This document shows, piece after piece, positions 49,142 to 64,000 of a stretch of 64,000 nucleotides of DNA. The position numbers and the translations under genes are program-made. Each line of letters starts with the position of its first letter. The stretch's first letter is position 1. The notes beneath the pieces were generated by a model. The model ran no database searches and was not told the origin of the DNA. It worked only from the letters and a program-made list of their open reading frames with translations. The stretch is from Nitratireductor indicus C115 (GTDB lineage: Bacteria; Pseudomonadota; Alphaproteobacteria; Rhizobiales; Rhizobiaceae), in the NCBI RefSeq assembly GCF_000300515.1, contig NZ_AMSI01000009.1, positions 124,001 to 188,000 on the forward strand, in the 5' to 3' direction.

Positions 49142-51247
49142 TCATTCCTCGAGAATCATGACGCAGTCGACCACGCTGGGGCCTGCTTCGCCTACCAGAA
49201 CGGGGTTGAGATCAAGCTCCGACAGGCGGGGTTCCATCGCCGCCGCCCAATGCGACAGGCGGAACAGCAACAGGGATATCGCTTCGCGGTCGACGGCGGG
49301 TTTGCCACGAACGCCGTCGAGAATCCTGCTCATGCGCAGGTCGTCCAGCATGGAGTACGCCTCGCTCCGATCGAACGGTGCGCGGCGGAAGGTGACATCC
49401 TTGAGAACCTCCACCAGTATGCCTCCAAAGCCCACCATGACGATCATGCCGAAGACCGGATCGCGCTGCACACCGATCACGAGCTCGACATGCCCCTCCG
49501 CCATTTCCTGGACGAGCACACCCGACAATCGGGCATCGGGCATCGCAGTGCGGGCCCGTTCGATCAAAGCGCGATATCCGGATCGGATGCCTGCCTCGTC
49601 ATCGATGTTCAAAATGACGCCATCGATCTCGGTCTTGTGAGGAATATCCGGGGACTCGATCTTCAAGGCCACGGGGCGAGCGCTGTCGCGCCACAGGGCA
49701 ACTGCGTGGTCCTCGCTCTCGGCGAGCCTGGCATGTGCCATGGGAATGCCTGCTTCGCGCAGCCAGGACGATGCCTCCACGGTGGGCTGCATGCCGGAGC
49801 CAGTGGTACCGGGACAGGCAGGGGACCCTGATGGGCTGACGGCATCTTCGCTGGTCTTGCGTTGCATTCCGTAACGCGCAAGCGCGGCTGCGGCTTCGAC
49901 GGCGCGTTCCCCCGCCGTATAGACGGGGATGTCTGCGGCGCGCAGCCCCTTTATGGCGGCGTCGGGAGCTGCGACCCAGCAAACAAGAAAGGGTTTGACG
50001 GTGCGTTGCTGGATTTCGCGGAAAATACCGAGCAAGGGTTCGACATGGGCCGTCATCAGCTGCAGCCAGACGATCGCGACGTCGATGTCCGGATCATCGA
50101 GAAGGCTAACGACGGATTCTGTCAGCAGCTCGGGCCGGGCGACGAACTGACCGGTGACATCCACCGGATTGCCGGCTGCGCCGAAGGCAGGCATGACAGC
50201 GGCAAGTCTTGCCTGCGTTGCCGCGCCCAGTTCAGGTACTGTGAGGCCGACTTCCTCGGCGCGGTCCGCCATCATGACGCCCGCACCGCCAGACTGGGTT
50301 GCGATGCCAAGCCCGCTTCCGCAGGCGCGGCGCGGCTGGCAAAAGACTTCCAGCATGTCGAGCATCTGTTCTTCGTTGCGAGCGCGCAGGACGCCATATT
50401 GCCTTACCACAGCGTCGAACACCGCGTCGGACACGGCGAGCGCGCCGGTGTGCGACGCAGCGGCACGGGCACCTGAGGACATGCGGCCGACCTTTGTCAG
50501 AATCAGCGGCTTTCCGAGTTCCTGGCATTTGCGCGCAAGACGAACGAGAGCATCCCCATCGGTAATACCTTCGAGATAACCGGCTGCGACCTTGATGCGC
50601 GGGTCTTCGACAATTGCCATCATCAGCTCGGCAAAACTCAAATCCGCCTGATTGCCGGTGTTCAGGAAGTATCCGAGACCCAATCCCCTCTGGCGCACGA
50701 GGGCCGCTATCGCCGTGCCGAAGGCGCCTGACTGCGTGACGAAAGCGATCGGGCCGGCGCCGGTTTCGCCATCGGCATACTGGCTGAAGGTCGCGTAGAC
50801 ATTGTCGAATGCATTGACGAAACCGAGACAGTTGGGCCCGAGGAGAATGACCCGCGCCGCCTTTGCCGTTTCCGCCAGCCGTTTCTCCAGCACCTTGCCT
50901 TCATCACCCATCTCACCAAAGCCTGAGGAGAAGATGACGGCGGTGCGGATACCCTTCCTGCCGAGTTTCTCGACGCAATCGCACACATGGGCGGCGGGCA
51001 GGGCGATGATCGCCAGGTCGGCGGCTTCGGGAAGCGCCTCGATGCTCGGATAGCAGACAAGGCCCGCTATCTCCTCGTATTTGGGATTAACCGGCAGGAT
51101 GCGCCCGGCATAACCTTTTTCGATCAGATGCTTCAGGGGGCGTCCGTTGACCTTGCCGAAGTCTGAGGAGGCGCCGATGACGGCTATCGATTTCGGATTT
51201 AAAAGCCGGCTAATAGTCTCGCGGCGGTCGGGGTTTGCATAGGTCAT
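49142..51247 (-). CDS. ADP-forming acyl-CoA synthetase (acetate-CoA ligase family, fused subunits)
   Basis: The 701-residue protein joins the CoA-binding domain (residues 10-140, with PKSIAVIGASSDFGKVNGRP), two ligase domains (about 150-440) and a C-terminal ATP-grasp domain (about 480-700). The phosphohistidine loop RAAASHTGALA places His266 at the active site. It forms acyl-CoA from a carboxylic acid, ATP and CoA with release of ADP and phosphate. It is the last gene of the minus-strand arm, 10 bp after the dehydrogenase gene. I infer that it activates the substrate of the whole cluster; family members accept acetate, pimelate and many others. Confidence 0.9.
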   Translation of the reverse strand: MTYANPDRRETISRLLNPKSIAVIGASSDFGKVNGRPLKHLIEKGYAGRILPVNPKYEEIAGLVCYPSIEALPEAADLAIIALPAAHVCDCVEKLGRKGIRTAVIFSSGFGEMGDEGKVLEKRLAETAKAARVILLGPNCLGFVNAFDNVYATFSQYADGETGAGPIAFVTQSGAFGTAIAALVRQRGLGLGYFLNTGNQADLSFAELMMAIVEDPRIKVAAGYLEGITDGDALVRLARKCQELGKPLILTKVGRMSSGARAAASHTGALAVSDAVFDAVVRQYGVLRARNEEQMLDMLEVFCQPRRACGSGLGIATQSGGAGVMMADRAEEVGLTVPELGAATQARLAAVMPAFGAAGNPVDVTGQFVARPELLTESVVSLLDDPDIDVAIVWLQLMTAHVEPLLGIFREIQQRTVKPFLVCWVAAPDAAIKGLRAADIPVYTAGERAVEAAAALARYGMQRKTSEDAVSPSGSPACPGTTGSGMQPTVEASSWLREAGIPMAHARLAESEDHAVALWRDSARPVALKIESPDIPHKTEIDGVILNIDDEAGIRSGYRALIERARTAMPDARLSGVLVQEMAEGHVELVIGVQRDPVFGMIVMVGFGGILVEVLKDVTFRRAPFDRSEAYSMLDDLRMSRILDGVRGKPAVDREAISLLLFRLSHWAAAMEPRLSELDLNPVLVGEAGPSVVDCVMILEE

Positions 51248-51257
51248 TGGCGCGGCC

Positions 51258-52475
51258 CTAGAATGACGAGATATTGGTCTGGGCGCGCCCGAGAACGAGC
51301 GCGTGGATGTCGTGCGTGCCTTCGAGCGTGTTGACGGTTTCCATGTTCATCAGGTGGCGGATGACGTGGTATTCGTCGGAAATGCCGTTGCCGCCATGAA
51401 TGTCGCGCGCCATGCGCGTTATCTCCAGAGCCTTTCCGGCATTGTTTCTCTTCAACAGGGAAACCATCTCGGGGCTTGCCTTTCCCTCATCGCGCAGGCG
51501 GCTCAGATGGATACATGACAACAGGGCGAGCGTGATTTCGGTCTGCATGTCTGCGAGCTTTTTCTGGACCAACTGGTTCGCTGCCAGCGGTTTTCCAAAC
51601 TGCTTTCGATCCATCGCGTATTGCCGCGAGGTCTGCCAACAGAATTCCGCCGCACCGACAGCTCCCCAGCAAATGCCGAAACGGGCATTGTTTAGACAGC
51701 CGAATGGTGCCCCGATGCCTTTTGCACCGGGCAACAAATTCTCATCGGGAACGAAGACATTGTCCATGTGGATCTGTCCCGTGGGAGAAGCGCGGACGGA
51801 AAACTTGCCTTCGATCTTGCTTGTGCCGAGACCTTCCATGCCGCGCTCAAGAATGAAGCCGCGGACGGTTCCTTCGTCGTCTTTCGCCCAGACAATCATG
51901 ATGTCGGCTATGGGTGCATGGGTGATCCATGTCTTGTTTCCGGTAAGGCGATAACCCCCGTCGACCTTGCGGGCGCGGGAATGCATGCCTCCGGGGTCGG
52001 AACCGTGATCGGGTTCCGTCAGACCGAAGCATCCCAGCATTTCCGCACGCGCCATGGCGGGCAGAAATCTCTCGCGTTGCTCTTGCGAGCCGTAGAGATA
52101 AATCGGCAGCATGCTGAGTGTGCTCTGCACGCCTAGCGCCGAGCGGAAGCTCGTGTCCACCCGTTCGAACTCGCGAGCGATCAATCCATAGGCGACATAG
52201 CTGATGCCTGCGCAACCGAAGCCTTCAATCGTTGCCCCGAGGAAACCAAGGTCGGCTATTTCCCGCATGACCTCGATGTCGAAGGTCTCATTGCGGTTCG
52301 ATTCCAGAATACGCGGCATCAGCTTGTCCTGCGCGTAGCTGCGCGCAGTGTCGCGGATCATGATTTCTTCCTGCGTCAGCAGGTCTTCGATGCGAAAGGG
52401 ATCCTCCCAGGAGAACTGGGCCCCCTTCATCCGTGCCCGGTCGAGGATATGCTGCGCCGGTTCAGGATTTTCCAT
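51258..52475 (-). CDS. Acyl-CoA dehydrogenase, glutaryl-CoA dehydrogenase-like
   Basis: This 405-residue flavoprotein aligns along its length with glutaryl-CoA dehydrogenase as I remember it ([69 protein letters not shown]). The catalytic base is Glu385. Two distal-pocket positions differ from decarboxylating enzymes: the residue before Glu385 is Leu rather than Tyr, and the position equivalent to human Ser98 is Gly115. The Arg (111) and upstream Glu (104) are kept. It should oxidise a C4/C5 acyl-CoA with an anionic tail without decarboxylation. The start at 52475 has a GGAGGAG site. It lies 22 bp after the hydratase gene. Confidence 0.9.
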
Positions 52476-52497
52476 GGGTTCTCCTCCCGAGATGCAA

Positions 52498-53298
52498 TCA
52501 GAAACGATCTCTATTGTCCGCCCTGCCGAAATCCGGCGTGCGCTTCTGGAGAAAGGCGTCGACGCCTTCCTGCTTGTCGGCTGAGCCGAGGCAGATCTGG
52601 AACCAGCGATGTTCGTAGTCGATAGCGTGGTCAATCGTCATGTCCGCGCTGCGCGAGACGGTGTCGATGATCGCCCGTGCGGAAACCGGCGCGAGCTTTG
52701 CGAGCCTGTGCGCGATGCTGGAAACCTCCTCGTCAAATATCTCTGGCGCTACGACCCAGTCGACGATGCCCAGCTGTTCCGCCTGCATCGCATCGACATG
52801 CTCGGCGAGGAGGATCATCCGCAGGGCGCGTCCCCGGCCGACCAGCCGGGTCAGGCGCGCGGTTCCGCCATTGGCGGGCAGGATGCCGATTCGCGTTTCG
52901 GGCAGACCGACCTTCGCGGTGGCGCTTGCGATTCTCAGATGGCAGGCAAGCGCGAGTTCCAGCCCGCCGCCAAGCGCATATCCATTGATTGCCGCAAGGG
53001 TCGGAAAGGGCGCTGTCTCGAGCCTGCGGGCGAGTTCGCGCCGGGCGCCGAAGTCGATCTCGTTCCAGGGGGTGCGTCGCTGCATCTCCTCCAGATCGGC
53101 TCCTGCGGCAAAGGCCTTGTCGCCCGTGCCGCGCACCACCAGCACGCGCGTGCCGGAGGGAAGATTGCGGACGGCATCGAGAGCCTCCGCGATCATCTGA
53201 TTGTTCAGCGCGTTCAGCACGTCGGGCCTGTCGAAGGTCAGAAATGCCTTGGCCCCTTCCTGGTGAAACCTGATCGTCTGATAGTCGGACATAGTCAT
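52498..53298 (-). CDS. Enoyl-CoA hydratase/isomerase family protein
   Basis: This 266-residue crotonase-fold enzyme keeps both catalytic glutamates: Glu114 in [14 protein letters not shown] and Glu134 in [21 protein letters not shown]. Hydratase activity, water addition to a trans-2-enoyl-CoA, is therefore expected. It is the first gene of the minus-strand arm, followed closely by the dehydrogenase and CoA synthetase genes. ATGs at 53298 and 53292 are both possible starts, with GGGA before them. Its product would be a 3-hydroxyacyl-CoA, and no dehydrogenase for that is encoded nearby. Confidence 0.92.
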
Positions 53299-53369
53299 CA
53301 AAATCCCGGTGAGGCCCACCTAGCTAGTAAGACGAGCTTTTCTGGTCCAATTTATTTTGATGACAATGA

Positions 53370-53388
53370 TTATTCAGAACCTGAATAA
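53370..53388. promoter_or_regulatory. Perfect 19-bp palindrome between the hydratase and lysR genes
   Basis: TTATTCAG-AAC-CTGAATAA lies 72 bp upstream of the hydratase start in the 148-bp gap to the lysR stop. It could be an operator for the left arm or a weak lysR 3' hairpin, but the stem is AT-rich and has no T run, which favours an operator. Confidence 0.5.
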
Positions 53389-53446
53389 AACATGCGGTGG
53401 CGATGTACCGCTTTGTCCAAAGCAGGACCTGACTTTCGCGCACAGG

Positions 53447-54352
53447 CTAGAGATTTTCGCACAGGGCGATGAGGTGATTGCGCAGCCAGCGGTGGGCAGG
53501 ATCGGCATCGTGCGTGTCATGCCAGATGAGAAACACCGGAAACTCGGGCGTGCGCACAGGAACCGTATAGGTCTTCAGGCGGAAATGATCCGCGTAGATG
53601 AAGGCCATTCTGCGCGGCAGCGTTGCAAGGAGGTTGGAGCGCTGAACCACTGCCGGCATGGAGAGGAAATGCGGAACGGTGAGCGCGATGTCCCGCTTCA
53701 ATCCCCGCTTGTTGAGCGCGAGATCGATCATGGGTCGGGATTTTCGTCGTGGGGTTATGACAACGTGCTGGAGATCGAGATAGCTGTCGAGGGTGAGTTG
53801 CTCCCCGAGCTTCGGATGATCGATGCGGGAAAGCGTCACCAGACCTTCGGTGAGAACGCATTTGCTGACGAAGCCCTCGCCCTGCAGGGCGAAATAATCC
53901 AGTGCGAGGTCAACTGTTCCTTCGCGAAGTTCGCGCGTCAACAATGAACTCGGCTCAGGCCGGATCTGGATGTGGATGCCGGGCGCGGCCTCCGCCAGCC
54001 AGTCGATGAAGCGTGGAATCAGTACGGTTTCGCCATAATCCTCGACGGCTATGACGAATTCGCGGTTGGATTTGGAATAGTCGAACTCCTCATCGCCACG
54101 GAAACCCCGCTCCAGGAGTTCCAGAGCCTGGCGAATGGGATCGCGCAGTGACTTGGCGCGCGGCGTCGGCACCATGCCACTCCCTTCGCGCTTGAATAGC
54201 GGGTCGTCGACGGTGTGGCGCAGACGCGCCAATGCATTCGACACTGCCGGCTGGGAAAGGTTGAGGCGTAACGCCGCCCTTGAGATGCTGCGCTCGGAAT
54301 AGACCGCGTCGAAAACCAATAACAGGTTGAGGTCCATCGATCTGAGATTCAT
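53447..54352 (-). CDS. LysR family transcriptional regulator
   Basis: The 301-residue protein has an N-terminal helix-turn-helix (SERSISRAALRLNLSQPAVSNALARLR, residues about 20-46) and a periplasmic-binding-like effector domain. The start region MNLRSMDLNLLLVFDAVYSE is of the NodD/SyrM type. The ATG at 54350-54352 follows CGAGGAGGAG. It lies between the divergent catabolic arms and probably controls both; an imperfect 22-bp palindrome lies 50 bp upstream in the 153-bp divergent region. The coinducer is presumably the substrate or a CoA intermediate. Confidence 0.9.
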   Translation of the reverse strand: MNLRSMDLNLLLVFDAVYSERSISRAALRLNLSQPAVSNALARLRHTVDDPLFKREGSGMVPTPRAKSLRDPIRQALELLERGFRGDEEFDYSKSNREFVIAVEDYGETVLIPRFIDWLAEAAPGIHIQIRPEPSSLLTRELREGTVDLALDYFALQGEGFVSKCVLTEGLVTLSRIDHPKLGEQLTLDSYLDLQHVVITPRRKSRPMIDLALNKRGLKRDIALTVPHFLSMPAVVQRSNLLATLPRRMAFIYADHFRLKTYTVPVRTPEFPVFLIWHDTHDADPAHRWLRNHLIALCENL

Positions 54353-54401
54353 GAAAGCTCCTCCTCGTGGCACGATCACAATATTTAGCCTGTCAATAAA
54401 A

Positions 54402-54423
54402 TCTATTCCCTATAGAAATTAGA
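54402..54423. promoter_or_regulatory. Candidate LysR binding site (22-bp imperfect palindrome)
   Basis: The arms TCTA and TAGA enclose CTATAG at the centre, with 8 of 11 possible pairs formed. It lies between the divergent lysR and thiolase-like starts, 83 bp before the latter, where LysR activators normally bind. Confidence 0.5.
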
Positions 54424-54505
54424 CAAATAATCCTCTCCTGCACATCCTTGGCTCGGATAATGAAGGGCCGGCATGCATTCGTTGCCCGCCCAGGGAGGAG
54501 AATTC

Positions 54506-55714
54506 ATGCGAGGAAAGGTAGCCATTGTCGGCTATGGCCGGACGCCCTATAGCCGGCTGAAGCCGGGCGAGCCCGTGCTTACGGTGGATGAGTACATCGC
54601 CTGGGCGGCTGAACTGGCGCTTGAACGGGCGGGTATGTCGAAATCCGATTTCGATGGTCAAGGGCTTGGCGTTTCGCATGCCGAAGTGGCTCATACCGTC
54701 AACTGGTCGGCGGCGACGGCGGAAAATCTGGGCATCAGTCCGAACGCCCTGATCCGTGGCGATCAGGGAGGGTGTTCGGCCACATCGATGCTCATCCGCG
54801 CTGCGACATTGATCGAGGCCGGCGTGATTGACAGGGCCCTGATCGTGGGAGCGGACACGCCCCTCAGCATGCCTTCTCTTGCACCGGGTCTGCCATTGTC
54901 GCCAGAGCGGACGCGCGGCGTCTTCTGGGATTTCCAGGGGCCATTCGGGGTCATGGGAGCGACGGCCCAGTTCGCGCTGATATTGCGCCGCTACATGCAT
55001 GAACATCAGGTGACGCCCGAGCAGCTCGGCAAGGTGGCGGTCACCAACCGGTATCATGCGTCGTTGAATCCCGGTGCAATCTACCGGAAGCCGTTCACGC
55101 TGCAGGAATATCTGGATTCGCGGATGCTATCGGATCCGATCCGGCTCTTCGATTGCGTGCCGATCGTGAATGGCGGGCTGGCCTATATCGTGACCTCGGC
55201 CGAATCCGCCAAGGCCATCACGGACAGGCCTGTCTATGTGCTCGGCTTCGGCGAAACCAACAATTTCTATTCCGGGTCGCGGGTCTTTCCCGATGTGACC
55301 GTTACCGGTTTTTCGGAGTCGGCGCCGCGTGCCATGGAAATGGCGGGCGTCGGGCACGACGATATCGATTTCCTTCAGCCCTATGACGACTACCCCTTCA
55401 TTTCCATGAAAACCATCGAGGATTGGGGGTTCTGCAAGAAAGGCGAGGGCGGCAAATTCCTTGAGGAACACGACCTGCGGTTCGACGGCGATTTTCCGAT
55501 GTCCACCGACGGCGGGCAACTCTCCGGCGGGCAGCCCGGCGGTGCCAATGGCGGTTTCATGCCGCTCGTGGAAGGCGTGACGCAATTGCGGGGTGAGGCC
55601 GAGGGGCGGCAGGTCCCGAATGCCGGCATCGGTGCCGTCTGCGGTTTTGGCGGCATCCCCTATGGGCGTCCGGGGCGGAGCTGCATTTCAGTCATTCTCG
55701 GATCGGAGGCGTGA
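54506..55714 (+). CDS. Thiolase-fold protein of the SCP-x/Ltp2 group, possible retro-aldolase
   Basis: This 402-residue protein has the thiolase fold. Cys90 in RGDQGGCSATSML and Cys379 in GAVCGFGGIP match the cysteine positions, but the loop that normally reads G-H-P-x-G reads G-Q-P-G-G at residues 342-346, so the thiolytic histidine is Gln343. The segment LQPYDDYPFISMKTIEDWGFCKKGEG resembles the Tyr-bearing loop of Ltp2 aldolases, which cleave 3-hydroxyacyl-CoA esters together with a DUF35 partner, and such a partner is the next gene. I infer retro-aldol cleavage. The start at 54506 has GGAGGAGAA. Confidence 0.8.
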   Translation: MRGKVAIVGYGRTPYSRLKPGEPVLTVDEYIAWAAELALERAGMSKSDFDGQGLGVSHAEVAHTVNWSAATAENLGISPNALIRGDQGGCSATSMLIRAATLIEAGVIDRALIVGADTPLSMPSLAPGLPLSPERTRGVFWDFQGPFGVMGATAQFALILRRYMHEHQVTPEQLGKVAVTNRYHASLNPGAIYRKPFTLQEYLDSRMLSDPIRLFDCVPIVNGGLAYIVTSAESAKAITDRPVYVLGFGETNNFYSGSRVFPDVTVTGFSESAPRAMEMAGVGHDDIDFLQPYDDYPFISMKTIEDWGFCKKGEGGKFLEEHDLRFDGDFPMSTDGGQLSGGQPGGANGGFMPLVEGVTQLRGEAEGRQVPNAGIGAVCGFGGIPYGRPGRSCISVILGSEA

Positions 55715-55716
55715 AG

Positions 55717-56133
55717 ATGGAAAGCATAGCGGCCAAACCCCTGCCGGACATTACCGACCTGACGCGCCCGTTCTGGACTGCGGCGCGCGAAGGGCGGCTC
55801 GTGATGCAAAAGTGCCCCAGCTGCGGCACGGTGAATTTCCATCCGAAGCCCTGGTGCATCGAATGCGGGGATCGTGGGCTGGAATGGACCGAAATGCAGA
55901 CTGGCGGAACGGTCTATTCCTACACGGTCTCCCACTCCGTTGCGATGAATCATCTGGGCTGGCAGGCGGAGCTGCCCGTCATCATGTGCCTGATCGATAT
56001 CGATGGCGGCGCAAGGATGTATGCGCAGGTCACCGACGTGGCCGCGGAGGATATGCAAATCGGCATGAGGGTGAAGGCCTATTTCGAGCCGATCAGTGAA
56101 GAAGCGGGCATCCCGAAATTCCGGCCTGCATGA
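55717..56133 (+). CDS. Zn-ribbon/OB-fold DUF35 partner protein
   Basis: The 138-residue protein has a rubredoxin-like zinc ribbon with Cys33, Cys36, Cys47 and Cys50 (QKCPSCGTVNFHPKPWCIEC), then an OB-fold (GGTVYSYTVSHSVAMN to YFEPI). DUF35 proteins bind acyl-CoA and form obligate complexes with thiolase-fold enzymes. It starts 2 bp after the thiolase-like stop with a GGAGG site inside that gene, so the two are coupled and very likely form one complex. Confidence 0.9.
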   Translation: MESIAAKPLPDITDLTRPFWTAAREGRLVMQKCPSCGTVNFHPKPWCIECGDRGLEWTEMQTGGTVYSYTVSHSVAMNHLGWQAELPVIMCLIDIDGGARMYAQVTDVAAEDMQIGMRVKAYFEPISEEAGIPKFRPA

Positions 56134-56211
56134 GCTTTCCGAAGGGGGGCGCCAAGAGCGGCTCCACCCTTTGGACTGGAGAAGCACGCATTTTCTGGGA
56201 GGAGAATTGCT

Positions 56212-57234
56212 ATGAAAATCGCATCGAACTCGATAAAACGCGGCCTCGCCATCGGCGCGATTGCACTGGCCGCAGCATCCCTGTCGCAGGGCAGTGCCCT
56301 GTCGCAGGAAACGACACAGATCAATCTTATCAGCGCTCCGTTCGGCACCGGCTCCTATGTAATGGGATCGGCGCTTGAGGAGATTTCCAAGAAGAGCGAT
56401 ATCGGTGTCACGATCACGCATTCGGAAAGCCCCGGCTTCGTATTCAACATCAAGAAGCTGGACAATGAGCCGGAGTTGAAAACCAACACGATCGTGGGGT
56501 CGGGCGGTGGCGTGCAGGGTCTTGCGAAAGCAGGCGTCGAACCCTTCGACAAGAAGTATCCGGGCTTCAAGCTCATCGCCAACTACAATCTGAATTCCAG
56601 CTGGCTGGCGACGCTCGACAAGAACATCAAGACGATCGAGGACCTGAAGGGAAAGAAGGTCGCGGTCGGACGGCGGGCGCAGATCAACTGGGCCATTCAG
56701 CCGGTCGCAATCCTGAGGGATGGCTGGGGTCTCAGCGACAAGGACGTCAATATTCAATATGTCGGAACGAAGGAATCGGTGGACGCGCTGCTCGACGGCA
56801 CGGCCGACGCAGCGATCGTCGGCGGCTACATCGATCCGGTCAGCGACAGGATGATGCTGAGCCCGCAAACCATCGAGTTTCTGGCATCGGGGCGCAATCC
56901 GCATCATCTCGACTGGGGTGCGGACATGGTCACGAAGGCGCGTGAGGCCGGTGTAAGCATGGCCAATGTGACGATACCGGCCGGTGTCGATCCCACCATC
57001 ACCGAGCCCATGGCGGGCTTCGCCGACAGCGTTGCCTGGATGGTCGCACCGGAGTTTCCCGAAGAGGTCGCCTACAAGGTGACCAAGCTGATTCTCGATA
57101 ACATTGAGAAGTTCGGCGAATACCAGGCGACAGGCAAGCTGATGTCTCCCAAGGGCATGATCTACGGATGGGATCCAGAGGACATTCATCCGGGAGCGCT
57201 GCGCGCCTATCGGGAAGCCGGCCTCATCGATTAG
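56212..57234 (+). CDS. TAXI family TRAP transporter substrate-binding protein
   Basis: The 340-residue exported protein has a signal peptide ending near ALSQE at residue 31, followed by TQINLISAPFGTGSYVMGSALE, the TAXI-family opening. The rest, including VAVGRRAQINWAIQPVAIL, fits the two-lobe solute-binding fold. TAXI proteins deliver organic anions to a fused TRAP permease. The ATG follows GGAGGAG. The substrate is unknown; context points to an organosulfonate. Confidence 0.92.
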   Translation: MKIASNSIKRGLAIGAIALAAASLSQGSALSQETTQINLISAPFGTGSYVMGSALEEISKKSDIGVTITHSESPGFVFNIKKLDNEPELKTNTIVGSGGGVQGLAKAGVEPFDKKYPGFKLIANYNLNSSWLATLDKNIKTIEDLKGKKVAVGRRAQINWAIQPVAILRDGWGLSDKDVNIQYVGTKESVDALLDGTADAAIVGGYIDPVSDRMMLSPQTIEFLASGRNPHHLDWGADMVTKAREAGVSMANVTIPAGVDPTITEPMAGFADSVAWMVAPEFPEEVAYKVTKLILDNIEKFGEYQATGKLMSPKGMIYGWDPEDIHPGALRAYREAGLID

Positions 57235-57252
57235 CCGGCATCAGCATATTGG

Positions 57253-57283
57253 GGAGCCGCTCGAATGTACTCGAAGCGGCTCC
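57253..57283 (+). repeat. Hairpin between TAXI binding-protein and TRAP permease genes
   Basis: GGAGCCGC-TCGA (57253-57264) pairs with TCGA-A-GCGGCTCC (57271-57283), with one bulged A and a 6-nt loop. It lies 18 bp past the stop, suiting differential mRNA stability that keeps binding protein in excess. Confidence 0.6.
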
Positions 57284-57344
57284 TCCCGAGTTTTCAAGAA
57301 ACAACTCACTGCGCTTTGCCCGCGCCTAACGGAGCATCGAAGCC

Positions 57345-59246
57345 ATGCAGATCAGATTGTTGGACGGCGCCATTCTTGCGGTCGGGCTGATGATGGTCGC
57401 ATATCAGATGGTATCGACCCAGTACCTGTTTCTCGGTTCCTACGAACACCAAGCCGTGCATCTCGGCTTCATCTTCGTCTTGCTGTTCCTGAACCAGGCG
57501 CGCAATGCGCGGGGCGCGTTCGGAACCATATGCAATATCGGGCTGGCCGTGCTTGGCGTAGTTGCGGCCGGTTATGTGTTTGTGAACATCGTCCATCTGG
57601 AAGAAGTCTTCGGCTATCCCGAAGGGATAGACGTGGTGGTGGGCGTTCTCCTGATTGCGCTCGTGGTGATTGCCACCCGGGCCACATGGGGATGGACGCT
57701 GCCCATCGTGTCGGCGATCTTCGTCGGTTACTTTCTGTGGGGCCACCTCATTCCGGGGCACCTGCATCACCGTCCGTTCAATTTCGACTATGTCGTCTCT
57801 TATCTGAGCATCGGGCTGTCGGGCATTTTCGGCACCTTTCTCGGCATTTCCGCCAATCAGGTTTTCCTGTTCGTGGTATTCGGTTCGCTGCTCGGCATCA
57901 TCAAGGTAAATGACTTTTTCCTCGAGGCAGGCAAGATCGCCGGTAAGGCCTTCCGCGGCGGCCCCGGCCAGACTGCAGTGGTTTCAAGCGGCTTCATCGG
58001 CATGATTTCGGGCGCGGCCGTCGCCAATGTCGCGGTCACCGGCGCCTTCACGATCCCTTACATGAAACAGGTCGGCTACAAACCCGAGCATGCGGGAGCC
58101 ATCGAGGCAACGGCATCGACGGGCGGGCAATTGATGCCCCCGGTCATGGGGGCAGCCGCCTTCCTCATGGCATCCTTTCTCGGCGTTTCCTACGATGCGG
58201 TGATGCTGGCGGGCATACTGCCTGCCATCCTGTATTTCTGGGGCGTCATGCTGGGCGTGCAGTTCCTGGCCGTGCGTTGCGACATCCGCCCACCGCTCGA
58301 GCGGATCAACTACCGCGTTCTGCTGCGGCGCCTGCCCCTGTTCGCGCTTCCGCTGGCGGTGCTCGTCACCATGCTGATCCTGCAATACAGCCCGGCGAAC
58401 GCGGCATTCTGGGCGATCATCCTTGCCGTGGCCCTGTCCTATGTCGATCCGCAGACGCGGCCGAAATACCCGCATCTTTGCCGCAGCCTCACCAGTGGGG
58501 CGATCATCGGGGCGCAGATCGGCATTTCCCTGGCTATCGTCGGACTGGTGGCCCAGACGCTGATCACGACCGGCCTTGGCAACAAGATCGCAAGCCTTGT
58601 CGAGCTTCTGAGCGGAGGCAATCTTCTGATCGGGCTCCTGCTGACGATGGTCGTCTCGATCATTCTGGGGTGCGGCGTGCCGACCAGCGCAGCCTATACG
58701 CTGGTTGCCATCGTGGTCATTCCCTCGGTGATCAAGATGGGGGTCGATCCGATGGCCGCGCATTTCTTCTCATTCTACTTCGCCGTCATCTCGTCCCTCA
58801 CGCCGCCGGTGGCGCTTGCGGCCCTGGCGGGTGCGGGGCTTGCCGGGGCGCCCTATTTCAAGACTTCGCTTTCGGCTGCAAAACTGGCCATTTCCGGCTT
58901 CATCATTCCGTTCCTGATCATCTTCAACCCGCTGCTGACCTTTAATCCGGTCAGTTGGGCCTGGGGTATCGGGACCATTGTCGCCGTCCCTCTCGGCATG
59001 ACTGCGCTTACCGCAGCGATCTACGGGTGCGGGTTGACGATGTTCACGGCCCGGGAACGGCTCCTTGCCGCCGTGTCGGCGTTCTGCCTGCTTGGATATT
59101 CGGTGTTCCGACACGTCGATGAACTACCGATCGAATATCCGATGCTGGTGATTGGCTGTGTCGTGTTCGCCTGGGTGCTGATTTCCCAGATCAGGGCCAA
59201 TCAGGAAAGCGGCAAGGCGATGCGTCCGGAATTTCAGAACACATAG
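57345..59246 (+). CDS. TRAP transporter permease, fused DctQ-DctM type (TAXI class)
   Basis: The 633-residue inner-membrane protein fuses the small and large TRAP subunits and has roughly 17 hydrophobic helices. The DctM-like blocks include GFIGMISGAAVANVAVTGAFT, ATASTGGQLMPPVMGAAAFL and ILGCGVPTSAAYTLVAIVVI. It should be a secondary, sodium-coupled importer working with the TAXI protein upstream. The next gene in the unit is xsc, which argues for import of a sulfonate. Confidence 0.93.
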   Translation: MQIRLLDGAILAVGLMMVAYQMVSTQYLFLGSYEHQAVHLGFIFVLLFLNQARNARGAFGTICNIGLAVLGVVAAGYVFVNIVHLEEVFGYPEGIDVVVGVLLIALVVIATRATWGWTLPIVSAIFVGYFLWGHLIPGHLHHRPFNFDYVVSYLSIGLSGIFGTFLGISANQVFLFVVFGSLLGIIKVNDFFLEAGKIAGKAFRGGPGQTAVVSSGFIGMISGAAVANVAVTGAFTIPYMKQVGYKPEHAGAIEATASTGGQLMPPVMGAAAFLMASFLGVSYDAVMLAGILPAILYFWGVMLGVQFLAVRCDIRPPLERINYRVLLRRLPLFALPLAVLVTMLILQYSPANAAFWAIILAVALSYVDPQTRPKYPHLCRSLTSGAIIGAQIGISLAIVGLVAQTLITTGLGNKIASLVELLSGGNLLIGLLLTMVVSIILGCGVPTSAAYTLVAIVVIPSVIKMGVDPMAAHFFSFYFAVISSLTPPVALAALAGAGLAGAPYFKTSLSAAKLAISGFIIPFLIIFNPLLTFNPVSWAWGIGTIVAVPLGMTALTAAIYGCGLTMFTARERLLAAVSAFCLLGYSVFRHVDELPIEYPMLVIGCVVFAWVLISQIRANQESGKAMRPEFQNT

Positions 59247-59261
59247 CGCTTTTATCAAATC

Positions 59262-59294
59262 GCCTTGCCCGCGGTCGCACCGCGGGGGCGAGGC
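59262..59294 (+). repeat. Strong hairpin between TRAP permease and xsc
   Basis: CCCGCGGT (59268-59275) pairs with ACCGCGGG (59279-59286) with a 3-nt loop. After a two-base bulge GCCTTG/CGAGGC lengthens the stem. No T run follows, so transcription probably continues and the stem sets relative mRNA amounts. Confidence 0.6.
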
Positions 59295-59317
59295 CTCGAC
59301 CCAGGAGAATTGTTGCC

Positions 59318-61102
59318 ATGACCAAGATGACGACAGAGGAAGCCTTCGTAAAAGTCCTTCAGATGCATGGTATCGAGCATGCGTTCGGGATCATCGGCTC
59401 GGCCATGATGCCGGTTTCCGACCTGTTTCCGCAGGCGGGGATCACCTTCTGGGATTGTGCGCATGAAACCAATGCGGGGATGATGTGCGACGGTTTCATC
59501 CGTTCCACCGGCAAGATGGCGATGGCCATCGCGCAGAACGGGCCCGGTGTTACCGGCTTTGTGACCGCGGTGAAGACGGCCTACTGGAATCACTCGCCGA
59601 TGTTGCTTGTGACGCCGCAGGCCGCCAACAAGACAATTGGTCAGGGCGGCTTTCAGGAGATGGAGCAGCTCCGGCTATTTGCCGACTGCGTATGCTATCA
59701 GGAGGAGGTTCGCGATCCCTCAAGGGTTGCGGAAGTTCTCAACCGTGTGATCCAGAAGGCCTGGCGGGCCTCCGCGCCGGTGCAGATCAACATCCCCCGG
59801 GATATCTGGACGAGCGTCATCGATGTCGAACTTCCGCAGATCGTGCAGTTCGAGCGGCCCTCGGGCGGCGAAGAGGCCGTGGCGAAAGCCGCGCGTCTTT
59901 TGTCCGAGGCCAGGTTTCCCGTCATTCTATCGGGTGCGGGGGTCGTGCTTTCGGGTGCAATTTCCGATCTCGTTCGACTGGCGGAGCGCCTCGATGCGCC
60001 CGTCTGTTCGAACTATCAGCACAATGACAGCTTTCCCGGTTCGCACCCGCTTGCAATGGGGCCGCTCGGCTACAACGGATCGAAGGCCGCGATGGAGACC
60101 ATCGCGAAGGCGGATGTCGTGCTCGCGCTTGGCACCAGGCTCAATCCGTTTTCGACATTGCCGGGGTATGGCATCGATTACTGGCCGGCCGGTGCAAAGG
60201 TCATTCAGGTCGATATCAACGCCGACAGGATTGGCCTGACCAAGAAGGTCTCCATCGGGATCGAGGGTGATGCGGGCAAGGTTGCGCGCGGAATTCTCTC
60301 GCAGCTTTCTCCGGAGGCTGGCGACGAGGGGCGAATCGAGCGGCGTGATCTCGTCGCCCTGACCAAGTCGCGCTGGGCGCAGGAGCTTTCATCGCTCGAT
60401 CATGAACTCGATGATCCGGGCACCGTGTGGAACGAGGAAGCCCGCCAGCGGGATTCCGATCTGATGAGCCCGCGGCAGGCCTGGCGCGCCATTCAGGTCG
60501 GGCTGCCGAGAGATGCGGTCATCTCGTCGGATATCGGCAACAATTGCGCCATCGGCAATGCCTATCCAATGTTCGACGAAGGGCGCAAATATCTCGCGCC
60601 CGGCCTTTTCGGGCCATGCGGATACGGCTTTCCGTCGATCCTTGGCGCCAAGATCGGCAACCCGGATACACCCGTCGTGGGCTTTGCCGGGGATGGCGCG
60701 TTCGGCATTTCCATGAACGAGATGACAGCGTGCGGCCGCAAGGGGTGGCCGGCCATCACAATGGTCATCTTCCGCAATTATCAATGGGGCGCGGAAAAGC
60801 GGAACACCACGCTCTGGTACGACAATAATTTCGTCGGAACTGAACTGGATCGGGGTACCTCCTATGCCGGCATTGCAAAAGCATGTGGCGCGCATGGTGT
60901 GACGGTTCGCTCGACCGAGCAGCTTACCGAAGCGTTGGCAGATGCTGTCGAACGGCAAATGAAGAAGGGTGAGACCACCTTTATCGAGGTGCTTCTCAAC
61001 CAGGAGCTCGGTGAACCCTTCCGGCGCGATGCAATGAAGAAGCCGGTGGTTGTCGCAGGCATCGACCGGTCCGACATGCAGCCGCAGAAGATGGCGGTCT
61101 GA
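59318..61102 (+). CDS. xsc: Sulfoacetaldehyde acetyltransferase
   Basis: The 594-residue thiamine-diphosphate enzyme splits sulfoacetaldehyde with phosphate into sulfite and acetyl phosphate. The TDP-activating Glu50 is in FWDCAHETNAGMMCDG, the GDG motif is in GFAGDGAFGISMNEMTACG near residue 458, and the closing FRNYQWGAEKRNTTLWYDNN is characteristic of Xsc as I remember it. Its length equals characterised Xsc proteins. The start has an AGGAG site. The pta gene follows 38 bp downstream, the usual xsc-pta pairing in organosulfonate degradation. Confidence 0.94.
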   Translation: MTKMTTEEAFVKVLQMHGIEHAFGIIGSAMMPVSDLFPQAGITFWDCAHETNAGMMCDGFIRSTGKMAMAIAQNGPGVTGFVTAVKTAYWNHSPMLLVTPQAANKTIGQGGFQEMEQLRLFADCVCYQEEVRDPSRVAEVLNRVIQKAWRASAPVQINIPRDIWTSVIDVELPQIVQFERPSGGEEAVAKAARLLSEARFPVILSGAGVVLSGAISDLVRLAERLDAPVCSNYQHNDSFPGSHPLAMGPLGYNGSKAAMETIAKADVVLALGTRLNPFSTLPGYGIDYWPAGAKVIQVDINADRIGLTKKVSIGIEGDAGKVARGILSQLSPEAGDEGRIERRDLVALTKSRWAQELSSLDHELDDPGTVWNEEARQRDSDLMSPRQAWRAIQVGLPRDAVISSDIGNNCAIGNAYPMFDEGRKYLAPGLFGPCGYGFPSILGAKIGNPDTPVVGFAGDGAFGISMNEMTACGRKGWPAITMVIFRNYQWGAEKRNTTLWYDNNFVGTELDRGTSYAGIAKACGAHGVTVRSTEQLTEALADAVERQMKKGETTFIEVLLNQELGEPFRRDAMKKPVVVAGIDRSDMQPQKMAV

Positions 61103-61140
61103 GCCGCGCGAAACCGGAAGCTTCAAGGGCGATATGATCG

Positions 61141-62175
61141 ATGAAGCCGCTTCTTCGAATCTACGATATCGCCCGCACGGCTCAACGGTATATTCTTTTG
61201 CCGGAGGGGGACGACCCGCGTATTCAGCGGGCCGCGGTCCGCGCCGTGCGGGAGGGACTGGCGCGCGTGACGTTGCTCGGGGACCCGTCCGTCCTGAGGC
61301 CGGCGCTGGAAGAGCTGGGTGCGGGCGGTCTCGTCGGGATCATCGATCCCGATCGTGCAGACGATATCGATGAGCTCGTACGGGAATATCACCGCCTGAG
61401 GGCGCACAAGGGGGTGTCCTTGCAGCAGGCGCGGGCCGGCGTTGCTGATCCGATGATACAGGCGGCATTGCGGGTTCGTCTTGGGCAGGCCGACGGCACG
61501 GTTGGTGGAGCAAGCCATACCACCTCGCAGACCCTGCGTGCTGCGTTGCAGCTCATAGGGCCTGCGAGCGGCGTGTCGGTGGTTTCGAGTTTCTTTCTGA
61601 TGCTCTCCTGCGAAACCCGGGCGGCGGTGAAGGGCGGCATGATCTTTGCCGATTGCGGGTTGAACGTTCTGCCAGATGCGGGGGAGCTTGCTTCGATAGC
61701 GAGAGCTTCCGCCGTCACGTGCCGCCAGCTCCTGAACGAGGAACCGCGCGTGGCGATGCTCTCGTTTTCAACAGCGGGTTCGGCGGAGCATGCAAGCCTC
61801 GGCAGGATACGCCAGGCGGTGTCGATGATCCGTGAAGCGGAGCCGGACCTCGAGATCGATGGGGAATTGCAATTCGATGCGGCCATCGACGATGCGGTGC
61901 GCAAGCACAAGGCGCCCATGAGCCGGCTTTCGGCGCGTCCCAATGTCTTCATCTTCCCGGACCTGGCTTCCGGTAATATCGGTTACAAGATCGCCCAGCG
62001 TCTTGGCGGGCTGGACGCCATTGGGCCGATCCTCCAGGGGCTGGCGCTTCCTGCGAACGACCTGTCGCGGGGATGCAGTGTCGATGACGTGCTGGCCGCC
62101 ATCGCGATCACCGCAGTGCAGGCGGCAAGTGCCGGAACGGTTCAGGCCAGAAGGTCCATTTCGAGCCGGATGTAA
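61141..62175 (+). CDS. pta: Phosphate acetyltransferase
   Basis: This 344-residue enzyme of the PTA_PTB family converts acetyl phosphate from Xsc into acetyl-CoA. Family blocks are LPEGDDPRIQRAAVRAVREG near the start, FFLMLSCETRAAVKGGMIFADCGLN in the middle and VFIFPDLASGNIGYKIAQRLG at the end. It is the short single-domain form common in xsc clusters. Its 3' end overlaps the convergent gntR gene by 34 bp, so both transcripts run into each other. Confidence 0.94.
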   Translation: MKPLLRIYDIARTAQRYILLPEGDDPRIQRAAVRAVREGLARVTLLGDPSVLRPALEELGAGGLVGIIDPDRADDIDELVREYHRLRAHKGVSLQQARAGVADPMIQAALRVRLGQADGTVGGASHTTSQTLRAALQLIGPASGVSVVSSFFLMLSCETRAAVKGGMIFADCGLNVLPDAGELASIARASAVTCRQLLNEEPRVAMLSFSTAGSAEHASLGRIRQAVSMIREAEPDLEIDGELQFDAAIDDAVRKHKAPMSRLSARPNVFIFPDLASGNIGYKIAQRLGGLDAIGPILQGLALPANDLSRGCSVDDVLAAIAITAVQAASAGTVQARRSISSRM

Positions 62176-62876
62176 TCGCCGCGATAGATCACGTCTGCCA
62201 GGTAGAGAATCTGTCCGCTGGCATCGCACAGGATGCGCCGCACATTGGCGACCGGGTCGCCGATGGCGAGGCCGAGCAGGCTGGCGGTCTCGTCATCGCT
62301 CTTTCCGATCACAAGCGTCTGGTGCGCCTTGCGGATGTCGATGTCGGGCGAGCGCAAAAGAACCGGCAGGGCCAATTCCTCACGCAACCGTGCGGCATGG
62401 CGCTCGAACACCGGCACCGCGCAATAGATCGCGATGATGCAATAGTGCTGCCCCTCGCGCGAATGCATGCGGCGCAAGAGGTGATAGCCCTCCGGTGCAG
62501 GAGTTCCGATTTCGGGGGAGCCGGGAAGTTCCGCCCGCCGGTCTTCCAGACCGACGAGATCCGGCGTGTCGCCCGAATAGACTTCAAGGAGATCGGCGAG
62601 GCGCGTCTCCACCTTGAGCGGTCTTTGGGCGGGAGCCTGCGGCAGCACCGTCGTGCCGCGCCCCCGGCGTGGTGCCAGAAGACCTTCCTGCTCAAGCAGC
62701 TTGACCGCCTGACGGACCGTGATTTTGGCGACGGAGAACTCATTGGCAAGATCGCTCAGCGTGGGCAATAGATCACCTTCGCGCCATGTCCCGCGCGCAA
62801 TCCTCTGGCGCAGGATTTCCGCGACCTGGAGATAGAGAGGCGCGCGGCTCTGGCGGAGAACATTTTGCGGTGTCAT
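62142..62876 (-). CDS. GntR family regulator with UTRA domain (HutC subfamily)
   Basis: The 244-residue protein has an N-terminal winged helix (PLYLQVAEILRQRIARGTW, LANEFSVAKITVRQAVKLLEQEGLL, residues 12-68) and a C-terminal UTRA effector domain (about 95-240). It is convergent with pta and divergent from a GMC oxidoreductase gene. Two perfectly inverted 11-bp sites lie between it and that gene, so it most likely represses itself and the oxidoreductase, and perhaps responds to a sulfonate or alcohol. Confidence 0.9.
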   Translation of the reverse strand: MTPQNVLRQSRAPLYLQVAEILRQRIARGTWREGDLLPTLSDLANEFSVAKITVRQAVKLLEQEGLLAPRRGRGTTVLPQAPAQRPLKVETRLADLLEVYSGDTPDLVGLEDRRAELPGSPEIGTPAPEGYHLLRRMHSREGQHYCIIAIYCAVPVFERHAARLREELALPVLLRSPDIDIRKAHQTLVIGKSDDETASLLGLAIGDPVANVRRILCDASGQILYLADVIYRGDYIRLEMDLLA

Positions 62877-62941
62877 GTGTCTCGTCGTCTCCTTGCGCGG
62901 CGTCCGGACAAGGGACGGCAGGGCGCCTCAAGCCTTAAATA

Positions 62942-63001
62942 TCTATATTTAGACATTTCGGGTTGCGCGCAAGCCGTGCGGAGATTATGCCTAAATATAG
63001 A
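62942..63001. promoter_or_regulatory. Paired GntR-type operator sites
   Basis: TCTATATTTAG (62942-62952) and CTAAATATAGA (62991-63001) are exact inverted copies with centres 49 bp apart, in the 171-bp gap between divergent gntR and the GMC gene. The spacing allows looping, or the sites may overlap the two divergent promoters. Confidence 0.65.
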
Positions 63002-63047
63002 ACTTTTCCCTAACCCCTGCGGACCGACGCCTGCGGGAAGGAGCAAT

Positions 63048-64000
63048 ATGTCCGGCTACGACTATATAATCGTCGGCTCGGGAACGGCGGGCTCGACCCT
63101 TGCCAACCGGCTTACTGCAGATGGACAAACACGGGTGCTGCTATTGGAGATGGGGGGCCATGACCGGCGCTTCTGGCTCAAGCTGCCGGTGGGTTATTTC
63201 AAGTCGATCTACAACAGCCGCGTTTCTCATCTTTACCGTGGCGAACCGGATGAAGGCATTGCCGGACGGCGGATGGATTGCCCGCGCGGCCGTGTGGTGG
63301 GCGGGTCGAGTTCCATCAATGGATTGATCTTCATCCGTGGGCAGCATCAGGATTTCGACGATTGGGAGGCCATGGGGGCGACCGGTTGGGGGTATCGCGA
63401 TGTGCTGCAGAGCTTTCGCAGCATCGAGCGCTACGATGGCCCGCCTTCACAATATCGCGGCGCGCATGGGCCGCTCGGGGTGTCCGACCTGCGCAACGAC
63501 AATCCGGCCTGCCGGGACTGGCTCGATGCGGCGCGCGGCTACGGTCTGCCCGACAATCCCGATTTCAACGGCGAATCCACCTACGGCATCGGAAGCTATC
63601 AGCTGACGCTTAACGGACGCTGGCGCGACAGCGCGGCTACCGCTTTTCTTCACCCGGTGCGCGATCGCCAGAACCTCACCGTGGCACTGCGGGCAGGGGT
63701 GACGGGCCTTGTCTTCGAGGGCAAGCGGGCGGTCGGCGTCACCTACCTTCAGAACGGCGAACAGAAGAGCGTGCGCGCCGAGCGCGAGGTGATCCTGTGT
63801 GCGGGCTCCGTGCAGACACCGCAGCTTCTCCAGCTCGCCGGCATCGGTCCGGCGGCGCTGTTACGCCAGCACGGCATCAAGGTGCGCCATGACGCGCCGG
63901 AGGTGGGGGCGAACCTGCAGGACCATCTCCAGATGCGCACCATTGTCGAACTCACCGACAAGCGCGATTCCCTCAACGATCACGTCCGCAATCCGTTGAA
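63048..64000 (+). CDS. GMC family flavin-dependent alcohol dehydrogenase (N-terminal part)
   Basis: The frame is open to the right edge, giving 317 residues. The FAD-binding GSGTAGSTLANRL near residue 10 and the GMC signatures GRVVGGSSSINGLIFIRG and CAGSVQTPQLLQLAGIG are intact. The ATG at 63048 has a GGAAGGAG site. GMC enzymes oxidise primary alcohols such as choline or long-chain alcohols. Next to xsc and a GntR regulator, oxidation of a hydroxy-sulfonate (for example isethionate to sulfoacetaldehyde) is an attractive but unproven role; a choline dehydrogenase-like role is the alternative. Confidence 0.88.
   Translation, partial: MSGYDYIIVGSGTAGSTLANRLTADGQTRVLLLEMGGHDRRFWLKLPVGYFKSIYNSRVSHLYRGEPDEGIAGRRMDCPRGRVVGGSSSINGLIFIRGQHQDFDDWEAMGATGWGYRDVLQSFRSIERYDGPPSQYRGAHGPLGVSDLRNDNPACRDWLDAARGYGLPDNPDFNGESTYGIGSYQLTLNGRWRDSAATAFLHPVRDRQNLTVALRAGVTGLVFEGKRAVGVTYLQNGEQKSVRAEREVILCAGSVQTPQLLQLAGIGPAALLRQHGIKVRHDAPEVGANLQDHLQMRTIVELTDKRDSLNDHVRNPL

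Follow-up and report, generated by a model that had tools for sequence, protein, structure and literature searches.

The window analysed here is a 64,000-nucleotide stretch of Nitratireductor indicus C115 (NZ_AMSI01000009.1, positions 124,001 to 188,000; C9:124001-188000 of the 4.99 Mb source genome, G000). It contains a gene cluster in which a relative of glutaryl-CoA dehydrogenase (GCDH) and a thiolase-fold/DUF35 pair are combined with sulfoacetaldehyde acetyltransferase (Xsc) and phosphate acetyltransferase (Pta). The substrate is probably a C4 omega-sulfo acid, with 4-sulfobutanoate as the likeliest candidate, which the cluster would convert to acetyl-CoA and sulfoacetaldehyde, the latter being passed on to Xsc; the probability of this reading is put at about two in three. 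Among the open-licence papers searched, no report of 4-sulfobutanoate degradation, or of an aldolase feeding Xsc, was found. The original prediction, made from the DNA alone, proposed the same interpretation; it is supported as far as the genome evidence reaches, with some contrary signs.

Gene set and proposed pathway

Pfam and NCBIfam profiles located all of the predicted genes at their positions, and this gene set is confirmed. Two divergent arms lie around one LysR gene:

49142-51247, minus strand: ADP-forming acyl-CoA synthetase (PF13549, PF13607, PF13380)
51258-52475, minus strand: acyl-CoA dehydrogenase, GCDH relative (structure match 1sir)
52498-53319, minus strand: crotonase-family enoyl-CoA hydratase (PF00378)
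53447-54379, minus strand: LysR regulator (PF00126/PF03466)
54473-55714, plus strand: thiolase-fold, Sal-like protein (domain and residue comparison)
55711-56133, plus strand: DUF35 partner, ChsH2-type zinc ribbon and OB fold (PF12172/PF01796)
56212-57234, plus strand: TAXI-family TRAP solute-binding protein (TIGR02122, 123 bits, cut-off 84)
57345-59246, plus strand: fused TRAP permease (TIGR02123, 510 bits, cut-off 321)
59318-61102, plus strand: Xsc (TIGR03457, 917.1 bits, cut-off 676.4)
61141-62175, plus strand: Pta (TIGR00651, 337 bits, cut-off 311.2)

The predicted span of 49142-62876 holds as far as 62175; its right edge takes in an unrelated GntR-like open reading frame (ORF). The synthetase is a single chain with CoA-binding, succinyl-CoA-ligase-like and ATP-grasp parts, and the DUF35 protein carries Cys-x2-Cys-x10-Cys-x2-Cys. 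Curated NCBIfam cut-offs were passed by Xsc, Pta, the TAXI protein and the TRAP permease, and by none of the other six proteins among the matches listed. The hydratase reached no cut-off in its best 25 of 73 matches; the nearest models for LysR, BsrA and LeuO, were both below cut-off (best 25 of 36 matches). As judged by eye, the thiolase-fold protein probably starts at ATG 54506, preceded by GGAGGAGAATTC, and an internal ATG near 54352 is the likelier start of LysR. The longest ORF of the dehydrogenase begins at 52634.

In the proposed pathway, the TAXI-TRAP transporter would import the sulfo acid, and the ADP-forming ligase would make 4-sulfobutanoyl-CoA. The GCDH relative would give 4-sulfocrotonyl-CoA, with Arg94 gripping the sulfonate where GCDH grips the terminal carboxylate. 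Hydration by the crotonase would yield 3-hydroxy-4-sulfobutanoyl-CoA, and the Sal-like/DUF35 pair would cleave this intermediate by a retro-aldol reaction to sulfoacetaldehyde and acetyl-CoA, with Tyr304 as base and Asp306 as acid. By family membership, Xsc would give sulfite and acetyl phosphate, and Pta the second acetyl-CoA. ADP-forming CoA ligases for sulfo acids have been reported, namely HpfYZ and SqwKL (excerpt of PMC11489063). We infer the substrate, the first five reactions and the regulation from the gene families, their conserved association, residue patterns, a shared motif and the co-occurrence with Xsc. Among acids whose breakdown would occupy every enzyme and lead to sulfoacetaldehyde, 4-sulfobutanoate is the simplest, and it was chosen for that reason; the imported compound may alternatively be 4-sulfocrotonate or 3-hydroxy-4-sulfobutanoate.

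The catabolism of taurine, isethionate, sulfoacetate and 2,3-dihydroxypropane-1-sulfonate (DHPS) yields sulfoacetaldehyde for Xsc. The proposed pathway shares with these routes Xsc and Pta as the last steps, and TauE or SauS genes stand beside some relatives of the core. Unlike in the known feeders, a C4 sulfo acid would be dehydrogenated, hydrated and cleaved by a retro-aldol reaction as its CoA thioester to yield sulfoacetaldehyde. On balance, the evidence leans towards a widespread, undescribed pathway for a C4 omega-sulfo acid (4-sulfobutanoate or a close relative), in which a GCDH paralog has been re-tooled from carboxylate to sulfonate and a YDDY-class thiolase-fold/DUF35 retro-aldolase releases sulfoacetaldehyde. 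If so, β-oxidation-type chemistry would be coupled to desulfonation, and Xsc, a known desulfonation hub, would have a new feeder route that relies on a modified GCDH relative and on a Sal-like aldolase whose acid residue differs. An uncharacterised thiolase-fold/DUF35 clade would gain a function. Since at least 44 proteobacterial genomes carry the thiolase ortholog, an environmental pool of such a sulfonate would have gone unrecognised, and bacteria would meet enough C4 sulfo acid, natural or man-made, to retain dedicated genes. The prediction is precise, naming two dehydrogenase residues, four aldolase residues and one substrate.

Recurrence of the core and its association with Xsc

Genome contigs were scanned with the thiolase-fold protein, and 44 loci were obtained. 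Of these, 42 (L012-L053; 68-92% identity) were taken as orthologs; two paralogs at 33-36% identity (L054 and L055) were excluded before every count. Together with the window, the Cupriavidus necator NH9 plasmid (L009) and genome G048 (L061), the set comprises 45 loci, several of which are close relatives. L013 (Pararhizobium sp. ih9) and L015 (Martelella lutilitoris) belong to the window's own family, probably Rhizobiaceae. The locus stretches usually reach up to 10 kb on each side, many being cut by contig ends, and genes were counted by direct tblastn. DUF35 was present in 43 loci, the synthetase in 40, the dehydrogenase in 38 and LysR in 34; a TTT (Bug-type) binding protein was found in 19, and TAXI and TRAP in 12 each. 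Dehydrogenase and synthetase both accompany the thiolase ortholog in 37 of the 45 loci. The order thiolase-DUF35-TAXI-TRAP-Xsc is repeated in L061, from another family of the same order, where an acetate kinase gene comes after Xsc. The gene association is thus more than chance, given DUF35 in 43/45 loci, dehydrogenase plus synthetase in 37/45 and the order recurring in L061. The neighbourhood search suggested with the original prediction therefore did find the unit elsewhere.

The thiolase, dehydrogenase and synthetase genes lie on one strand in 28 of the 37 loci and not in the other nine, the window included. Because of this one-strand arrangement, the two arms are considered to be one unit, as had been claimed; the operator-like motif shared by both arms agrees with this. 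TAXI and TRAP also go with the core, since they trail the thiolase-DUF35 pair even where Xsc does not follow (L012-L017 and L034-L036). Two copies of the motif flank the LysR gene:

53371-53387, gap between LysR and the hydratase arm: palindromic operator-like site TATTCAGGTTCTGAATA
54382-54398, plus strand, gap between LysR and the aldolase gene: imperfect second copy TATTTAGCCTGTCAATA

The pattern TATTYA-N5-TSAATA matched the whole genome only at these two gaps, and the reversed control gave 0 matches; this rarity is suggestive only, because the pattern was derived from the sites themselves. The motif is exact in both gaps of seven of the nine divergent loci (the window, L012-L016 and L052). 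In single-strand loci, the aldolase-side gap contained it in one of four (L018; not L038, L039 or L047). Control of the two arms would fall to a single LysR that acts in both gaps.

Xsc lies inside the locus in five of the 45 loci: the window, L061, L041, L042 and L043. At the genome level, Xsc exceeded its cut-off in 45 of the 48 records searched, or 42 of the 44 distinct genomes left after removal of one plasmid record and three repeats with identical coordinates. Of the two exceptions, G460 (2.4 Mb) gave no match, and G447 scored 630.9 bits against the cut-off of 676.4. Ignoring phylogeny, Xsc was found in 6/6 genomes with the ortholog vs 102/389 without it in the window's own family (Fisher p 3.8e-4), in 4/4 vs 29/295 in the family of G430 (p 1.3e-4), and in 6/6 vs 43/95 in the genus of G430 (p 0.011), the last two samples overlapping. 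These background searches scored few top candidates per genome (3 in the own family, 4 in the G430 family and 11 in the G430 genus), equally with and without the ortholog; the 48-record search scored up to 27. The predicted link to xsc thus stands as an enrichment of Xsc in ortholog-bearing genomes, but Xsc beside the core is exceptional, and most core-bearing genomes would have to rely on Xsc encoded elsewhere.

Other sulfonate genes also neighbour the core. A TauE/SafE homologue is present in seven of the 45 loci: L012-L016 (63-100% identity), where it adjoins the synthetase (Pfam-checked in L012 only, 78.6 bits, cut-off 32.6), and L046 and L049 (38-39%). SauS is inside two loci, L022 and L043.

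Several genomes offered further observations around the core and Xsc. In G848, which shares its genus with Variovorax sp. JS1663, the core is flanked by a GMC/IclR pair and by a SauS homologue (64%, tblastn), and the surroundings look like a sulfonate region: GMC, IclR and MFS genes on one side, and the SauS homologue with pieces of an AMP-binding ligase (by eye) on the other (L126:2665-13229 and L127:544-2103). Xsc is about 34 kb from the core in G848, with a large molybdoenzyme-like ORF past it (L128, by eye), and 31-32 kb away in G847 and G850. The window genome has another Xsc, 78% identical to that of the window, at about 460000-472000 of C1 (L112:3-11514). Its gene row, several members of which were assigned by eye, includes a TRAP permease piece, a fused E1-like 2-oxo acid dehydrogenase, SDR, VOC and Pta (51%), and also an E2 lipoyl acyltransferase (TIGR01349 over cut-off); it is possibly another route into Xsc. 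Upstream of the core on plasmid pENH92 of C. necator NH9 are an LLM flavin-dependent oxidoreductase, a flavin reductase, an MFS transporter, an aldehyde dehydrogenase and an acyl-CoA ligase (L009:2068-9671), which might convert a larger or disulfonated compound to a 4-sulfo acid. A thiamine pyrophosphate (TPP) enzyme follows the TTT binding protein of the core in L038 (15014-17854), L049 (16200-17837) and L046 (near 16226). In L038 and L049 its nearest models are 2-hydroxyacyl-CoA lyase and acetolactate synthase, both below cut-off, and it could free an aldehyde from a 2-hydroxyacyl-CoA.

Residues of the thiolase-fold protein and of the dehydrogenase

In HMMER comparisons with the PDB, the thiolase-fold protein matched 4u4e (195 bits), CtSal of Comamonas testosteroni (9MYR, 184 bits) and the acetyl-CoA acetyltransferase 7yvy (145 bits), followed by 4yzo (129), BbsB 7pxp (125), Ltp2 6OK1 (119) and 6ESQ (98). 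Its nearest NCBIfam model, the acetyl-CoA acetyltransferase PRK06158, was below cut-off. The window protein has Tyr304-Asp305-Asp306-Tyr307, Gln349 and Gln354, with Gly100 at the thiolase nucleophile position. Tyr304, Asp305, Asp306 and Gly100 are kept in all 45 loci, and Gln354 in 44 of 44 readable rows, one row being short. Compared with thiolases, Gly replaces the nucleophilic Cys, Tyr the His of HDxF, and Gln the His of GHP; on these residues, thiolase activity was rejected. In CtSal, Tyr302 is the base and Cys304 the acid of the YDCY motif, Gln352 takes the place of Tyr344 in Ltp2, and the Gly at the nucleophile position is said to preclude thiolysis (excerpts of PMC12329534).

The window protein has the features of the Sal type, including the DUF35 partner, the base Tyr of YDxY, Gln for the GHP His and the missing nucleophile Cys. 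It is classed as Sal-like and not as Sal proper because Asp306 replaces the catalytic Cys304, in 45 of 45 loci. Judged by these residues, the protein looks like an aldolase more than a thiolase, and it is plausible that Asp306 serves as the general acid in place of Cys. The pair shares with the Sal/Shy aldolase the thiolase fold with DUF35, the base Tyr, Gln for the GHP His and Gly at the nucleophile site, and the Sal/Shy reaction, 3-hydroxyacyl-CoA to aldehyde and acetyl-CoA, is the one proposed for it. Unlike Sal/Shy, it has Asp for the essential Cys304, it has a stand-alone DUF35 protein with a Cys4 pattern instead of the Cys3His domain of Shy, and its gene context is sulfonate instead of steroid. 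Ltp2-ChsH2 (6OK1) belongs to the same class of thiolase-fold/DUF35 retro-aldolases with a Tyr base. However, YDHF and the second Tyr344 of Ltp2 are replaced by YDDY and Gln354 in the window protein, and the match is weaker (119 vs 184 bits for Sal). The original prediction of an Ltp2-type retro-aldolase is therefore kept in its aldolase part, the residues being of that type, and the Ltp2 assignment is replaced by Sal-like.

Two other ideas about this protein were dropped. The window protein has Cys at residue 101, a position that is occupied by Ala in 36 of the 45 loci, by Cys in 7 and by Ser in 2; MAFFT puts the nucleophile position at Gly100, and CtSal has Ala at the residue-101 position, so Cys101 was rejected as a thiolase nucleophile. 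YDDY is also not unique to this clade, since four of eight paralogs at 35-38% identity have YDD[YF] (L118, L119, L124 and L125).

The closest solved structure to the dehydrogenase is glutaryl-CoA dehydrogenase 1sir (E 1e-173, 581 bits). In human numbering, the equivalents of Arg94 and Glu370 are invariant in the 38 cluster copies, Tyr369 is replaced by Leu in all 38, and Ser98 by Gly in 35 and by Asn in 3; the window enzyme has Gly and Leu. The residue pattern of glutaryl-CoA dehydrogenase (Arg94, Glu370 and Tyr369) is thus broken at Tyr369. Second GCDH copies were sought in nine genomes with the dehydrogenase as query (E <= 1e-80). The nine cluster copies of these genomes have Gly (8) or Asn (1) at the Ser98 position; the seven second copies, found in six genomes and including the window's own L109, keep Ser98 and Tyr369, and these canonical paralogs keep Arg94 alike. 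No second copy was found at this threshold in the other three genomes. Ser98 of GCDH contacts the carboxylate that is lost as CO2. The equivalent of human Tyr369 hydrogen-bonds Arg94 and touches the same carboxylate (excerpt of PMC3169403). The cluster enzyme therefore has glutaryl-CoA dehydrogenase as its closest family and shares its catalytic Glu and substrate-end Arg, but differs from it at Ser98 and Tyr369 in all 38 copies. Since 4-sulfobutanoyl-CoA is the sulfonate analogue of glutaryl-CoA, a kept Arg94 in an altered pocket is as the proposal predicts, and the expected change of the GCDH pocket was borne out.

Alternative explanations and neighbouring genes

Several observations weigh against the proposed pathway. 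Xsc (>=45% identity) is absent from the examined stretch of 40 of the 45 loci, and lies about 0.9 Mb from the core in G423 and about 2.3 Mb in G457. A crotonase (>=25% identity) was found in only 26 of the 45 loci, often a different one (~33%). The top-scoring PDB match, 4u4e, bears only the name Thiolase, HMMER sets Cys101 of the window protein opposite the active Cys of BbsB, and Asp306 is a putative general acid. The operator-like pattern was written from its own sites, and among the divergent loci it is exact in one gap of L061 and in neither gap of L017. In the literature searched, 4-sulfobutanoate appeared, by title, only in papers on antibody-drug conjugates or protein drugs. SauS, searched by NF047625 (E <= 1e-100), was over its cut-off in 30 of the 44 genomes, including G451-G453, which hold the Xsc-bearing loci L041-L043; part of the Xsc link may thus reflect a general sulfonate-degrading lifestyle. 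Finally, a gene which the retro-aldol route does not need adjoins the core in L012-L014 and L052:

L012:14840-15838 and L052:842-1819: 3-hydroxyacyl-CoA dehydrogenase, with homologues in L013 and L014 (PF02737/PF00725, checked in L012)

The only role offered for it is to deal with a by-product or with the opposite enantiomer. The proposal, which was said to give every enzyme a job, makes no use of this gene beside the four core relatives.

These last genes would fit a retro-Claisen route, in which 3-hydroxy-4-sulfobutanoyl-CoA is oxidised, the 3-oxo-4-sulfobutanoyl-CoA is cleaved to sulfoacetyl-CoA and acetyl-CoA, and SauS then makes sulfoacetaldehyde for Xsc. SauS, besides its 30 genomes and the two loci that contain it, is near the core in G445 (about 7 kb away) and G431 (11 kb). 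This route is nevertheless unlikely. The Gly at the nucleophile (45/45), the Tyr for the HDxF His (45/45) and the Gln for the GHP His (44/44 readable) argue against thiolysis, and the same Gly is reported to make CtSal unable to thiolyse (excerpt of PMC12329534). No 3-hydroxyacyl-CoA dehydrogenase was found by Pfam among the window cluster genes. At the same SauS threshold there was no match in the window genome, G048 or G422-G424, and only sub-cut-off matches in G425 and G426. In the window genome and G048, the two in which Xsc was seen immediately after TRAP, the SauS hallmark of the Sau (sulfoacetate) pathway is thus missing at this threshold. A thiolytic route would stall in the window genome, which has no SauS match; direct release of sulfoacetaldehyde is the way to close the pathway there with known enzymes. 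It is also improbable that two units are stacked, with TAXI-TRAP-Xsc-Pta handling sulfoacetaldehyde derived from a different sulfonate (isethionate, for example, together with the neighbouring GMC oxidoreductase), the core serving another omega-substituted acid, and their co-occurrence marking versatile organisms. The 71-bp gap with a GC-rich inverted repeat before Xsc (by eye) would fit such stacking, as would the nearest relatives L012-L016, in which the core runs to TRAP and Xsc is not there, and the placing of Xsc in other operons in the relatives whose Xsc context was examined. The GMC gene beyond GntR is, moreover, 48% identical to one beside Xsc in L114. However, the TAXI and TRAP genes stay with the thiolase-DUF35 pair even where no Xsc comes after them (L012-L017 and L034-L036), the window genome already has another Xsc-Pta operon, and Xsc behind TRAP is repeated in G048.

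The substrate of the core might instead be a dicarboxylate: glutarate, for example, would be broken down with no decarboxylation, 3-hydroxyglutaryl-CoA giving acetyl-CoA and malonate semialdehyde, and Xsc-Pta would be an unrelated neighbour. The closest relatives of the dehydrogenase are indeed glutaryl-CoA dehydrogenases, and Arg94 is kept; yet the window genome has a second GCDH with canonical residues (L109), Tyr369 is lost in all 38 cluster copies, Xsc is enriched, and TauE, SauS and acetate kinase genes neighbour some loci, which leaves this option quite improbable. Very unlikely is a pathway in which 3-sulfopropanoate is activated by the ADP-forming ligase, dehydrogenated and hydrated, and sulfite is lost from a 3-hydroxy-3-sulfo intermediate. 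It would leave the aldolase-like pair and Xsc without a role, and a GCDH-type pocket would suit the analogue of a C5 diacid, a four-carbon sulfo acid such as that of the proposed retro-aldol pathway.

To the right of the unit lies one further gene:

62142-62876, minus strand: GntR-like regulator ORF (by eye), outside the unit

By eye, it is divergent from a choline-dehydrogenase-like GMC oxidoreductase (62865 onward), which is followed by an aldehyde dehydrogenase. This group (62142-63998 and beyond; L010:16865-18676 and L011:606-2102) is apparently a separate unit beside pta. The GMC gene was not adopted as a member of the cluster, as its choline-dehydrogenase-like match is below cut-off and it lies beyond GntR. 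Within the cluster, the 71-bp gap between the TRAP and xsc genes (59247-59317) contains, by eye, a GC-rich inverted repeat with no T run, which is a possible attenuator.

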